37,831 nt of DNA, taken from NCBI GenBank assembly GCA_025963185.1, contig JAOPVE010000320.1, forward strand, positions 1 to 37,831, given 5' to 3'. The position numbers and the translations under genes are program-made. This document shows, in pieces, positions 6,071-30,232 of this stretch; the stretch's first letter is position 1; the number at the start of each line of letters is the position of its first letter. This DNA is from Actinomycetes bacterium (GTDB lineage: Bacteria > Actinomycetota > Actinomycetes > Mycobacteriales > Cryptosporangiaceae). The notes beneath the pieces were generated by a model. The model had not been told where the DNA came from. It searched no databases and saw only the letters and a list, made by a program, of their open reading frames with translations.

Positions 6071-6537
6071 CAGTCCGGCCCGCAGGCTCGCGTCACCGTT
6101 GCACGCGGCCCCGTCGGCGGGCCAACCGGCTCGGCGCCCAGCGCATCGCTCGGCGCCGGCCGGTCGGCTCGGAGGCCAGCGCATCGCTCGGGGCTCGGTC
6201 CGGTCGGTTCGTCGACCGGCCCAAGGCTCGCCGTCTGGCCCCGCGGGCTCGCCGTCTGGCCCCGCGGGCTCGGCGTCTGGCCCGTGGGAACCGCGTCTGG
6301 CCCCGCCACGCGGCCAGCCAGGCGAGTCCGCCGAGGTACCCCAGCCCAACCGGTTTGCCGCGCCAGCGAGCGGGCACGGAGAGCCGGCGGGCTGGTCGGG
6401 GCGAACGGCCGGGCAGGCTCGTGGAGCGGCGATCCGATTGGGAATCTTGATCGGTACGGACATAGCCTGGGGCATCGCAGCAGGCCGTGGAGGCTAGGTC
6501 ACGATCGCGGTGCGATCCGTGACGTTGTAGGAAGGGG
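6071..6537. other. intergenic region upstream of hppA, no convincing gene
   Basis: This stretch separates the bldG operon from hppA. Its first 240 bases are filled by two short tandem repeat families (listed separately). Frames open on both strands (for example 6099-6497 plus and 5864-6475 minus) translate to P/S/G/A- or R-rich low-complexity sequence and have no ribosome-binding site. From about 6310 to 6520 I see no gene, RNA or clear hairpin. The likely hppA promoter follows. Confidence 0.6.
6128..6308. repeat. two short tandem repeat blocks (38-bp x2, 21-bp x4)
   Basis: Block one has two copies of a 38-bp unit beginning GGCTCGG, at 6128 and 6166, both containing CCAGCGCATCGCTCGG. Block two has units of 21 bp beginning GGCTCG at 6225, 6246 and 6267, with a decayed fourth copy at about 6288; the core CCGTCTGGCCCCGCGGGCTC is identical in the first two. 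There are no unique spacers, so this is not a CRISPR. No reading frame across it has a ribosome-binding site. Confidence 0.75.
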
Positions 6538-22545: not shown

Positions 22546-22607
22546 GTGATCGCATCTCCTTGCTGAGCCTGGCCGGCGGTCTGCCAGGGCGCGATAGGGT
22601 GGGCGCC

Positions 22608-22698
22608 GTCCGCGGGAGCCCGGTGACACCGGGCTGAGAGGGGGCCTGGCAGGCCCCGACCGTAAGAACCTGATCCGGATCATGCCGGCGCAGGGAGT
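22608..22698 (+). ncRNA. TPP riboswitch upstream of thiO-thiS-thiG
   Basis: The THI-box landmarks are all present in order: GCGGGAGCCCGG, ACCGGGCTGAGAGGG, a P3-type GC stem (GGGGCCTGGCAGGCCCC), GACCGTAAGAACCTGATC and ATGCCGGCGCAGGGAG. The aptamer ends next to the ribosome-binding site of thiO (ATG 22703), so TPP binding probably hides the site and blocks translation, the usual actinobacterial mode. Confidence 0.93.
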
Positions 22699-22702
22699 GG
22701 AG

Positions 22703-23845
22703 ATGATCGACGTGGCAACACGCCGGATCGCCGTGGTCGGCGGCGGAGTGATCGGCTTGGCCTGCGCCTGGCGCATCGCACAACGGGTGCCGTGCGAGGT
22801 GACCCTGATCGACCCGGACCCCGGCGCGGGCGCCAGCGCGGTCGGCGCGGGCATGCTGGCGCCCCTGACCGAAGCGCACCCGACCGAGCCCGACCTGCTG
22901 GAACTCGCTCTGGACTCGGCCGCGCGGTTTCCGGCGTTCGCAGCCGACCTCGCCGCCGCAAGCGGGCTGGATCCTGGCTACGAAACGGCTGGCACGCTCG
23001 CCGTGGCGCTCACCGCGGACGATCGCGCCGCACTCGGAGTGCTCGCTGGGCACCTCGCTGCGGCCGGACGGGATACCGAGCTTCTCGGATCCCGCGCGCT
23101 GCGCAACCTCGAGCCCGCGCTCGCGCCCGGCGTCCGGGGCGGGCTGCGCGTCGATGGTGACCACAGCGTCGACAACCGAGCCCTGTTGCGCTCTCTGCGC
23201 CGCGCGGCGGACCGCGCCGGTGTGCGATTTGTTGCCGACCAGGCGCTTGCGATCACGGACTCGGGCGACCGTGTCACCGGTGTGCGGCTGGTAGGAGGCG
23301 CTCACCAGCGCGCCGATGTGGTTGTCGCCGCCGCGGGTTGCTGGTCGGCCGGTCTGCACCCCGCGGCGGCGGGGCTCATCAGGCCGGTGAAGGGCGAGAT
23401 CATCAGGCTGCGCGCCCGGGCCGGCGTGGTCCGTCCACAACGGACTCTGCGAGCGACGGTCGACGGGCGATCCGTGTACCTGGTGCCCAGATCCAGCGGT
23501 GAGCTCGTCGTCGGCGCGACCCAGTACGAAGCGGGGTTCGACACGAGTGTGAGCGCGGGGGCCGTACACGCGCTGCTGAGCGACGCGCGGGCGGTCCTCC
23601 CCGGCATCGACGAATACGAGCTCACAGAGGCCCGGGCGGGCCTGCGTCCGGGCAGCAGGGACAACGCGCCGCTGATCGGGCCGATCGGCCCCGCCGGCCT
23701 GGTCGCGGCCACGGGACACCACCGGAACGGGATCCTTCTGGCGCCCGTAACCGCCGACGCGATCACCGATTTCCTGATCGATGGCCACCTGCCGCGGTTC
23801 GCCGAAGCGGCAGCGGCCGCCCGATTCCAGACTGTGCGGAGGTGA
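22703..23845 (+). CDS. thiO: glycine oxidase ThiO
   Basis: A 380-residue FAD enzyme that oxidises glycine to the imine (dehydroglycine) used in thiazole synthesis. The dinucleotide-binding motif [19 protein letters not shown] begins at about residue 8. The middle of the protein has the DAO substrate domain ([35 protein letters not shown]). The C-terminus contains the second FAD region [15 protein letters not shown]...[14 protein letters not shown] choose ATG 22703, just after the riboswitch and GGGAGTGGAG, over ATG 22682, which lies inside the aptamer. It is the first gene of thiO-thiS-thiG and is controlled by the TPP riboswitch. Confidence 0.95.
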
Positions 23846-23849
23846 CGCA

Positions 23850-27447
<3,598 letters not shown>

Positions 27448-27497
27448 GGACTCGACCACCGTAGTGAGAACGCTGGAGGCGCTTCAACCGGATCGGC

Positions 27498-27560
27498 TTG
27501 TATCAACTGCTTGACACATCCTGCGCCGCCCACCATCATTGTGTCAAGCGTTCAATACAA
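27498..27560. promoter_or_regulatory. large inverted repeat over promoter of membrane protein/GntR operon
   Basis: Two 21-base arms (27498-27518 and 27540-27560) match at 17 of 21 positions when one is inverted: outer TTGTAT/ATACAA and inner GCTTGACACA/TGTGTCAAGC are perfect. A -35 TTGACA lies in the left arm (27511-27516), and a weak -10 CATCAT (27534-27539) follows at 17 bases, so the right arm covers the transcription start. This fits an operator for the GntR regulator encoded downstream. Confidence 0.7.
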
Positions 27561-27575
27561 GTTGAGGACCTGCCG

Positions 27576-28466
27576 ATGATTCGCCTGCTCGTTCCGCTCG
27601 CGGCGCTGCTGGTCGCCGCCCTCGCTGCCGCCTCGGTGCTCCGCCGCTCGCGGAGTGGGCCCGCCGATCTGGTGGGGGACCCGCTGAAGCGCGTCGCGAC
27701 TCGGGCGTTCGTGTGGCGTTCCGCCGGTTTATTGTTCGGGGTCGTCGTGGCGCTCCGGCTGGCGTTCGCTCCGCCGTCGTGGCTCGGCCTCGGGCTCGCC
27801 GTTATCGCACCGGCAGTCGCGCTGTGCGTTCTGCTGGGTGTGCTCGCCGGAGAGCTGTCGGGATACAAGAATCGTGGACCCGCACGCAGCGCGTCGCTCA
27901 GCGCCCGGTCGATCGCCTCGTATCTGCCGCCCGTGGCGACGCGGTGGATGGTCGGATTGACAGTGCTCCTGACCGCGCTGCTGACGGCGACGACGGCCGC
28001 CGGGTCAGCCGACGATCAGGGCCGGCCTGGCCGATCCCTGACCGTGCTGTGCGGTGGCGGCGCGGGTGACATGTACAGCTCCTCGCACGGTCCGTGGCCT
28101 GGCCTGTTCTACTCTGGACCCATCGGCGGCGGAACGCTGGCGGGCCTGGTTGCCGCCGCGGTGGTCCTGCACCGGATCGCGCACCGCCCGCGTCCAGGCG
28201 CGGAGGTGGAGGTCTCCGACGATGCCCTTCGGCGCCGGTCAAGCCGGATGGTCATCGCGGCGGCTGGGCTGCTCGTCGCCACGAGCCTGACGGGCGCGGC
28301 GCTGTTCGCTGGCGGTGCGATGCTCAACGTCGACTGTGGTCCCACGTGGTTGCCGGTGCTGGGCTGGCTGACCTTGGCGAGCGCGGCCGTGGGATTCATC
28401 AGCGCGGCAACGTTTGCCAGCATTCTCCTTGTCCCCGGTCGTATCCCCGTGGGAGCGCCTCGATGA
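27576..28466 (+). CDS. multi-pass membrane protein linked to GntR regulator
   Basis: A 296-residue protein from ATG 27576 with GAGGA upstream; an in-frame start at 27498 would lie inside the operator repeat and is rejected. I count six or seven transmembrane segments: near the N-terminus (2-20), about 45-63, 68-90, 127-148, 190-212, 228-250 and 265-288. Between the fourth and fifth is an exposed loop rich in G, S and Y (about 150-187). I do not recognise the family. Its stop overlaps ATG 28463 (ATGA), the usual coupling with a following regulator gene, and a YtrA-type GntR regulator lies downstream. Such pairs respond to cell-envelope stress or antibiotics in other Gram-positive bacteria; this is analogy only. 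Confidence 0.75.
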   Translation: MIRLLVPLAALLVAALAAASVLRRSRSGPADLVGDPLKRVATRAFVWRSAGLLFGVVVALRLAFAPPSWLGLGLAVIAPAVALCVLLGVLAGELSGYKNRGPARSASLSARSIASYLPPVATRWMVGLTVLLTALLTATTAAGSADDQGRPGRSLTVLCGGGAGDMYSSSHGPWPGLFYSGPIGGGTLAGLVAAAVVLHRIAHRPRPGAEVEVSDDALRRRSSRMVIAAAGLLVATSLTGAALFAGGAMLNVDCGPTWLPVLGWLTLASAAVGFISAATFASILLVPGRIPVGAPR

Positions 28467-28675
28467 GGCACACAGTGAGGGTCGCGCCCGGTGGTGCCGC
28501 CGCTATCGGGATGGCCGACGCGCGCGGCCGGCCCACCTTGACCTACGCACGTGGCGCACGGCTGGGCGATGGCGATGCGCCGATGTGGAGCGACGAAGTC
28601 CTTCACCTCAGAAGGGGTCCTGCGCCAATGCAGAGCCACGTCCGCGCGCCGTCCAGGTACCCGATACCGACGCGC

Positions 28676-28880
28676 GGCACGCCGAGGATGGGGATCGCCG
28701 GCACGCCGAGGACTGCGGCGAGTTTGGGCGGTACGGCGACGACGGCGGCGAGGCCGGGTGGCACGCCCAGGACCGCGTTGTTGGATGGCACGCCGACGAT
28801 GGGCGTTGTTGGGTGGCACGCCGGCGATGGGCGAGGCCGGCGGCACACCGAGGATGGCGCCCTTGTTGGGCACACCAGGA
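28676..28880. repeat. array of eight degenerate GGCACGCC repeats, period 24-30 bp
   Basis: Units starting GGCACGCC (or GGTACGGC, GGCACACC) occur at 28676, 28700, 28730, 28760, 28787, 28815, 28842 and 28869. The steps are 24, 30, 30, 27, 28, 27 and 27 bases. Most are multiples of three, which suggests a once-coding repeat. Read on the minus strand the units give GVPxxxAxxL-like peptides, for example AVLGVPPGLAAVVAVPP. Confidence 0.75.
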
Positions 28881-28885
28881 CGGCT

Positions 28886-28938
28886 GTGCGCAGCCACCCT
28901 TCGGGCGGCGCCGCGGTGCGCAGCCACCCTTCGGGCGG
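28886..28938. repeat. direct repeat, two 23-bp copies 30 bp apart
   Basis: A 23-base sequence starting GTGCGCAGCCACCCTTCGGG occurs at 28886-28908 and again, identical, at 28916-28938. It directly follows the GGCACGCC array. No spacer pattern or terminal inverted repeat is evident. Confidence 0.8.
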
Positions 28939-28943
28939 TGGAC

Positions 28944-29552
28944 ATGACCGGTGAGACAGCTGGTGGAACCTCGGCCGGGCCACCGTTCCGCGGCAGATCG
29001 GGCGACGGTGTAGCAGGCCCCGCTGAGCACCACGGCGGCTCGTCGACAGAGGAGATGGCGGAGCAGGGTGGGATTCGCACCGGATCCGCTGATGAGGTTG
29101 CTCGGGGCCCCGGTGACCGCAGGACGGAGGATCCCCAGGCGGACGGCCGAGAGACCAGCGAAGGTGTCCCGGGCCGGTCAGCGATCGCGGTTGACACGAC
29201 GAGTCCGGTCCCGCCATACGAGCAGATCCGTCGGCAGGTTGCCGAACTCATCCGGCACGGGGTTCTGCGCGAGGGCGACAGGTTGCCGCCCGTACGGCAG
29301 CTAGCGGGCGACCTCGGCCTGGCTGTGGGCACCGTCGCTAGGGCGTATCGAGAGCTGGAGCTCGGCGAGTTGGTGCGGTCCCGCCGTGGCGCCGGGACGC
29401 GGGTGGCCGCGAGTACCCCGCTGACCGAGGCGGAACGCGAGCGGTCACTCGCCGAACAGGCTCATGCCTTCGTGGCCGAGGCTCGCCGGTTCGGCGCGTC
29501 CACCGGCGAGGTCATGGCCGCGGTCCGCTCCGCGCTGGAGGGACCACGGTGA
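28944..29552 (+). CDS. GntR-family (YtrA-like) transcriptional regulator, N-terminus uncertain
   Basis: The certain part is a winged helix-turn-helix from codon 29193: DTTSPVPPYEQIRRQVAELI, REGDRLPPVRQLAGDLGLAVGTVARAYRELE and RRGAGTRVA. A short helical C-terminus follows (ERSLAEQAHAFVAEARRFGAS...). The 120 codons from there match a complete YtrA-subfamily regulator. The first in-frame ATG is 28944, which adds 83 hydrophilic residues not seen in the family. ATG 29055 is an alternative, although its GAGGAG abuts the start. The natural start may be ATG 28463, coupled to the membrane gene, now cut off by inserted DNA. The regulator probably represses its own operon through the inverted repeat at 27498-27560. 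Confidence 0.65.
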   Translation: MTGETAGGTSAGPPFRGRSGDGVAGPAEHHGGSSTEEMAEQGGIRTGSADEVARGPGDRRTEDPQADGRETSEGVPGRSAIAVDTTSPVPPYEQIRRQVAELIRHGVLREGDRLPPVRQLAGDLGLAVGTVARAYRELELGELVRSRRGAGTRVAASTPLTEAERERSLAEQAHAFVAEARRFGASTGEVMAAVRSALEGPR

Positions 29553-29617: not shown

Positions 29618-29815
29618 TCACTTCCAGCGGCCGGCGGCGTACGCCGGCAGCAGCAGCGCCTGCGCGACGAGGACGCGGTCGCCATCGTGGGTGATCGCGG
29701 GAGATCCGTAGAGCTCGTACCCCTCGTCGATCGCCGCGCTGACCTTCGCCGAGAACTCGCCGTCGTCCGGACCCGTGATGAGCCGGTACCTCAGCCGTTC
29801 CTTGACGTGCTCCAT
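29618..29815 (-). CDS. DUF1737 domain protein
   Basis: A 65-residue protein from ATG 29815 with GGAGG as ribosome-binding site. The frame is open upstream to 29899, but that part is not needed. The sequence YRLITGPDDGEFSAKVSAAIDEGYELYGSPAITHDGDRVLVAQALLLP is the DUF1737 pattern: a small alpha/beta domain found alone or attached to other proteins, function unknown. It is a single gene facing the GntR gene. Confidence 0.85.
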   Translation of the reverse strand: MEHVKERLRYRLITGPDDGEFSAKVSAAIDEGYELYGSPAITHDGDRVLVAQALLLPAYAAGRWK

Positions 29816-29882
29816 TCGCCACCTCCTCGCCACGCCGGACGTCCCCCACGGTAGGGGTTCAAATCGCTGCGTGGCGTGCGGG

Positions 29883-29904: not shown

Positions 29905-29977
29905 GCCGCCTTAGCTCAGTCGGCAGAGCGGCTCACTCGTAATGAGCAGGTCAACGGTTCGATTCCGTTAGGCGGCT
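29905..29977 (+). tRNA. tRNA-Thr (anticodon CGT)
   Basis: A complete 73-base cloverleaf. The acceptor stem GCCGCCT pairs with AGGCGGC, and the D-arm is TAGCTCAGTCGGCAGAGCG. The anticodon arm is GCTCA-CTCGTAA-TGAGC with anticodon CGT, the variable loop AGGTC, and the T-arm AACGG-TTCGATT-CCGTT. The discriminator is T and CCA is not encoded (CCG follows). It reads ACG threonine codons, common in this GC-rich genome. A small GCTCC-GCAA-GGAGC hairpin and a strong terminator follow. Confidence 0.97.
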
Positions 29978-29994
29978 CCGCAAGGAGCACGGTG

Positions 29995-30149: not shown

Positions 30150-30232
30150 CGGCCGCCCCGAGCCGAGCGTGCCCGAAGCCGAGCGTGCCCGAAGCCGAGC
30201 GCACCCCAAGCCGAGCGCGCCCCAAGTCACGG
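30150..30232. repeat. 16-bp tandem repeats in intergenic region
   Basis: AGCCGAGCG recurs at 30161, 30177, 30193 and 30209 with an exact 16-base period; units read GCCCGAAGCCGAGCGT or close variants, and decay at both ends. They lie between the tRNA terminator and the end of the convergent membrane-protein gene. The rest of the interval 30056-30286 shows no gene. Confidence 0.75.

Follow-up and report, generated by a model that had tools for sequence, protein, structure and literature searches.

Organization of the membrane gene/regulator locus

The window (the whole stretch of DNA analysed, 37,831 nt from an actinobacterium of the Cryptosporangiaceae) contains a membrane protein gene followed at some distance by the body of a YtrA-type GntR regulator, with the following features between and around them:

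27497–27562, no strand assigned: probable operator/promoter, formed by the inverted pair TTGTATCAACTGCTTGACACA ... TGTGTCAAGCGTTCAATACAA ahead of the membrane gene (pattern matches)
27576–28466, plus strand: intact membrane protein gene, 296 aa, the regulator's partner (ortholog identity, codon score)
28463–28483, plus strand: the regulator's ancestral start and first seven codons, MRHTVRV (ATGA overlap, GGGAG, match to relatives)
28463–28954, plus strand: 163-codon ORF read from the ancestral start, without a homologue and overlapping ATG 28944 by 11 nt at its stop
28484–29192, no strand assigned: inserted interval, 709 nt (or 703 nt, 28487–29189, should TCGCG be a target duplication), absent in 84/85 pairs
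28676–28895, no strand assigned: eight degenerate units built on a GGCACGCC core, arrayed at spacings of 24, 30, 30, 27, 28, 27 and 27
28886–28938, no strand assigned: two copies of GTGCGCAGCCACCCTTCGGGCGG, in 30-nt units starting at 28886 and 28916, 30 nt apart (repeat search)
28944–29192, plus strand: possible new 83-residue low-complexity N-terminal extension (open frame; coding score below that of genes)
29193–29552, plus strand: intact YtrA-type GntR regulator body, 119 codons plus stop (PF00392, conserved columns, relatives)

The membrane gene (ATG 27576, stop 28464–28466) has a codon score of +0.19, and its product is 45% and 38% identical to its orthologs in two genomes of the same family, G001 and G003 respectively. 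As the original prediction had proposed, its stop overlaps ATG 28463 (ATGA), where a frame opens with MRHTVRV; this start has a good Shine-Dalgarno sequence, GGGAG, at a spacing of 7 nt, and both the overlap and the distance to VDTT agree with G001 and G003. The remainder of the regulator was likewise correctly placed: the GntR body restarts at 29193 (29190 including the preceding Val), in the +1 frame relative to ATG 28463 (29193 − 28463 = 730), and ends with a stop codon at 29550–29552. Joining 28483 to 29193 does yield the anticipated regulator of 126 residues, whose N-terminus agrees with those of the relatives, since deletion of 28484–29192 restores MRHTVR-VDTTSPVPPYEQ, the counterpart of which in G001 is MIERLT-VDTTDPVPPYEQ.

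The regulator body itself is intact. It matches the GntR winged-helix domain PF00392 over residues 8–71 (E 1.8e-13, 50.4 bits versus a cut-off of 27), and the 48 residues that follow fit, by length, the ~50-residue C-terminal part of the YtrA subfamily. The nearest NCBIfam model is the Rv1152 equivalog (NF053730) with 85 bits, below its curated cut-off of 170, indicating a relative rather than Rv1152. Identity is 68% to the G001 and 61% to the G003 regulator, and of the 35 columns that at least 85% of orthologues conserve the body retains 34, the one deviation being equal to the ortholog median. The co-encoding with a membrane protein expected of this subfamily is also seen, with the membrane gene directly upstream in 84 loci and 0.7 kb away in the window.

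The segment 27497–27562, ahead of the membrane gene, contains two exact matches to TTGTATN6CTTGACACA, against 0.02 expected in the window, and no such pair occurs elsewhere in the genome at up to two mismatches. Among 83 orthologous loci, 53 have related half-sites ahead of the membrane gene, compared with 4% of random pieces. The pair thus has, by sequence, the long palindromic form of YtrA operators, and is the probable operator of the regulator. Long palindromic operators and partner membrane genes are known traits of the YtrA subfamily (PMC4494728, PMC6746942), so it is natural to infer that the regulator autoregulates its own operon.

Several other features lie nearby. A TPP riboswitch (22604–22713, plus strand) precedes a gene starting near 22682, while thiC (25709–27343, minus strand) has no upstream Rfam riboswitch match at gathering score. 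Convergent with the regulator is a gene for a small DUF1737 protein (PF08410, E 4.9e-16; 29621–29830, minus strand), which adjoins tRNA-Thr(CGT) at 29905–29979.

Spacing in orthologous pairs and limits of the interval

The family comparison covered five genomes, among which that of the window is the sole member of its genus. The wider set of pairs was drawn from matches in 399 genomes of the order and from 80 named loci, nearly all actinobacterial, which came from a search of genome contigs with the regulator alignment; the membrane protein, used as query in a genome-contig search, gave no match. In the family, the pair is present in two of the four relatives, both with a GTGA overlap, the regulator N-termini being GTGATCGAGCGGCTCACC-GTCGACACG (MIERLTVDTTDPVPPYEQ) in G001 and MTDRPALTVMTDDPTPPYEQ in G003.

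The original prediction had called for related genomes to be checked for an intact pair without the 709 bp, and this arrangement proved to be the rule. Measured from membrane gene stop to regulator start, the spacing is −16 to +23 nt in 84 of 85 distinct membrane/YtrA-type GntR pairs, including the two same-family genomes, and the interval is absent from all 84. The commonest spacing, with 33 cases among the 85, is −4 (NTGA overlap); that in the window is +705, or 709 nt above the −4 arrangement. Such a contrast, together with the restored N-terminus, indicates by parsimony that the extra 709 nt are a derived gain confined to the window's lineage. Synteny in ~85 loci thus makes the splitting of the regulator gene by an insertion a well supported reading.

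Three loci of the wider set deserve separate mention. Marmoricola sp. Leaf446 has two tandem membrane paralogues ahead of the regulator, and its apparently exceptional spacing of +832 was counted to the second of these, the adjacent partner lying at −1. An actinobacterial-type membrane/YtrA pair is also present on two contigs assigned to Ignavibacteriales and Chloroflexi MAGs, reflecting a binning error or transfer.

Because of a direct repeat, TCGCG, at 28482–28486 and 29185–29189, the cut points can be placed only to within a few bases. The 28483/29193 join gives MRHTVR-VDTTSP, of the same N-terminal length as in G001, and the TCGCG join (the 703-nt alternative, giving MRHTVRVAVDTTSP) produces MRHTVRVA-VDTTSP, with the length found in G003; both fit the data. 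As a target duplication TCGCG is not significant, because the flanks share five 5-mers (and no 6-mer), which places a 5-nt repeat at chance level.

Structure and nature of the interval

From its upstream end, the interval comprises ~190 nt of unique sequence, the eight degenerate units, the two 30-nt units and a further unique stretch of ~250 nt ending at 29192. The low-complexity repeats ascribed to it are real, consisting of eight GGCACGCC-type and two GTGCGCAGCCACCCTTCGGGCGG units, the latter occurring nowhere else in the genome with three or fewer mismatches. Forward-frame scores of the interval fall below those of genes. With 72% G+C the interval is native in composition, at the 26th percentile of the genome for 4-mer likelihood and the 59th for G+C. 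Tandem arrays built of unrelated units are frequent: a census of ~340 kb, which took in ~307 kb of the genome sampled as stretches, counted 37 non-coding arrays, some of them in the window. The repeats of the interval are thus no sign of a special element. Two arrays in the window, at 6127–6306 (38/21-nt units) and 30154–30226 (16-nt units), are non-coding, GC-rich and unrelated in sequence to the interval.

An assembly artefact, with 709 nt inserted or misjoined, might be suspected in a fragmented draft of 547 contigs that is 93% complete and 2.5% contaminated, especially where repeats are present. We consider this very unlikely, since the sequences on either side make up a single ancestral gene, its halves correctly ordered, and the interval is unique in the assembly, native in composition and well inside the 37.8-kb contig.

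Read on the minus strand, the array encodes [AP][VI][LVA][GA]VP[PSAR] repeats with one frame break, which raises the idea that a decayed repeat-protein gene of [AP][VI]LGVPP units was brought in with the insertion. Six of the seven spacings are multiples of three, the exchanges on that strand are conservative (V/I, L/V) or synonymous (CCG/CCA), and codon-position G+C in the minus-strand frame at 28643–28792 is 0.84/0.52/0.88. Nevertheless, the codon score of +0.04 is inside the wrong-frame range (95th percentile 0.10), and the frame break and the lack of a homologue also make such an origin improbable. When the 163-codon ORF, the 83-residue extension and the reverse GVPP repeats were used as homology queries, just weak, composition-driven matches were obtained.

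Searches with the interval as a whole were uniformly negative. The search for further copies of the 709 bp in the same genome, also suggested at the outset, found the interval to be single copy, with no second copy of it or of any part by DNA and repeat-pattern search of the 93% complete genome. No convincing homologue was found in the 399 genomes of the order; short DNA matches in 139 of them are composition-driven and fall chiefly within the repeat array, and those loci that were looked at sit in unrelated reading frames. Phages, plasmids, Pfam/NCBIfam and PHROGs gave no match, leading us to reject a phage or plasmid origin. Nor was there an Rfam match up to E = 1, and the interval folds no better than shuffles (z = 0.32), as is also true of hairpins of the 30-nt repeats; a known RNA was rejected on these grounds. 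No promoter or terminator was found inside the interval, by a scan that fits actinobacteria poorly. A group II or other intron, whose splicing from the mRNA would make the regulator whole again, would suit the length and position of the interval if it lacked an ORF, but the same Rfam and folding results render it almost inconceivable.

No terminal inverted repeats pair the interval ends, and no flanking direct repeat exceeds 5 nt. An insertion sequence or MITE was rejected, given the absence of inverted repeats and further copies; TCGCG is at chance level. As for an undescribed mobile or repetitive element, for example MITE-like or a passenger with TCGCG as target duplication, the sharp insertion within a gene, the occurrence of TCGCG on both sides and the internal repeats would be in keeping with it; we nonetheless hold it to be quite unlikely, because the single copy, the missing terminal repeats, the insignificance of TCGCG and the lack of a homologue in related genomes all argue against it. 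Hence, of the 'new kind of insertion' originally put forward, the insertion is upheld by synteny, whereas its being a mobile element is not supported, in view of single copy number, absence of inverted repeats, lack of a significant target duplication, absence of coding content and native composition. Rather, the interval has the look of anonymous DNA, non-coding and with degenerate short repeats, in which nothing can be recognised as a mobile element, an intron or part of a phage or plasmid.

Translation and fate of the interrupted regulator

The regulator body continues upstream as an open in-frame run of 217 codons (found in 2.75% of shuffles), in which GTG 28938 and ATG 29055 are further in-frame starts besides ATG 28944. 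None of the three has a well-placed Shine-Dalgarno sequence: that at ATG 28944 is weak, and an AGGAG abuts ATG 29055. The 83-residue disordered N-terminus from ATG 28944 that the original prediction offered as an alternative to insertion is in fact compatible with it, because insertion at that point would leave such an extension. It is unproven all the same, because its coding score is low (−0.16 bits per codon, compared with a 5th percentile of +0.08 for window genes), it is conserved in no genome searched and its Shine-Dalgarno sequence is weak; an 83-codon open run arises in 27% of shuffles. Reinitiation at ATG 28944 after the stop of the 163-codon ORF is possible, and the overlap between the two is unremarkable because 14 candidate starts lie in frame.

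The main rival to continued function is that the insertion silenced the regulator by removing its start, leaving an untranslated frame, a very young pseudogene and a constitutive membrane gene. Consistent with silencing, the ancestral start and its Shine-Dalgarno sequence now lead into the unrelated 163-codon ORF, no strong new start is apparent and the extension scores as non-coding. We regard silencing as rather unlikely, however, since 119 codons persist without stop or frameshift, conserved residues are retained at 34 of 35 positions, the operator is intact and the open run extends so far upstream. Also improbable, and clearly more so than silencing, is that a de novo disordered regulator N-terminus of 83 or more residues arose together with a de novo protein of 163 residues, from the end of which ribosomes reinitiate at ATG 28944; in that case, one event would have made two new coding sequences while the operon feedback loop was kept.

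The explanation we favour, with modest confidence, is an anonymous gain of ~0.7 kb in this lineage with the regulator still functional, bearing a non-conserved N-terminal tail, and with its operator intact. The ancestral unit had two genes, a membrane protein and then an overlapping YtrA-type GntR regulator. In the window lineage only, the anonymous DNA was gained between the seventh or eighth codon of the regulator and its remainder, presumably by end-joining or another illegitimate event, or by local repeat expansion, rather than by transposition. The regulator is probably translated from ATG 28944 (or GTG 28938 or ATG 29055) as a protein of 165 to 204 residues, with a low-complexity tail ahead of the intact winged-helix domain, and would still bind the operator pair TTGTAT...TTGACACA that precedes the membrane gene and repress its own operon. 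With the ancestral start now opening the 163-codon ORF, which ends near ATG 28944, some reinitiation could remain; the tight coupling of membrane gene and regulator should nevertheless be weakened.

The locus is a clean example from nature in which unique, non-transposon DNA has disrupted a conserved start-stop overlap and left regulator and putative operator intact. Should the regulator still be made, the locus would show a coupled gene surviving the loss of its start and non-coding repeat DNA becoming an N-terminal extension; otherwise, it is a young gene loss of the ordinary sort. From the comparison there also emerges a well-conserved putative operator for a little-studied membrane-protein/YtrA pair.

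Like MITEs and non-autonomous IS-derived elements, the interval is short DNA interrupting a gene, but unlike them it has no terminal inverted repeats, extra copies or significant target duplication. Translational coupling is best at stop-start spacings of −4 to +3 nt (PMC12548453), where the ancestral arrangement and most relatives fall and the window does not. The ancestral ATGA at 28463–28466 corresponds to the commonest spacing motif of NTGA (−4 nt) coupled pairs (PMC12548453), and the window keeps this overlap in its DNA, although it now opens a non-homologous ORF instead of the regulator. With the YtrA systems of S. coelicolor (SCO3812) and S. acidocaldarius (YtrASa), the locus shares the winged helix with its ~50-residue C-terminal part, the partner membrane gene and a long palindromic operator before the operon (PMC6746942, PMC4494728). 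It differs from them in that the regulator is the second gene, and only in the window genome is it parted from its start and partner by ~709 nt.
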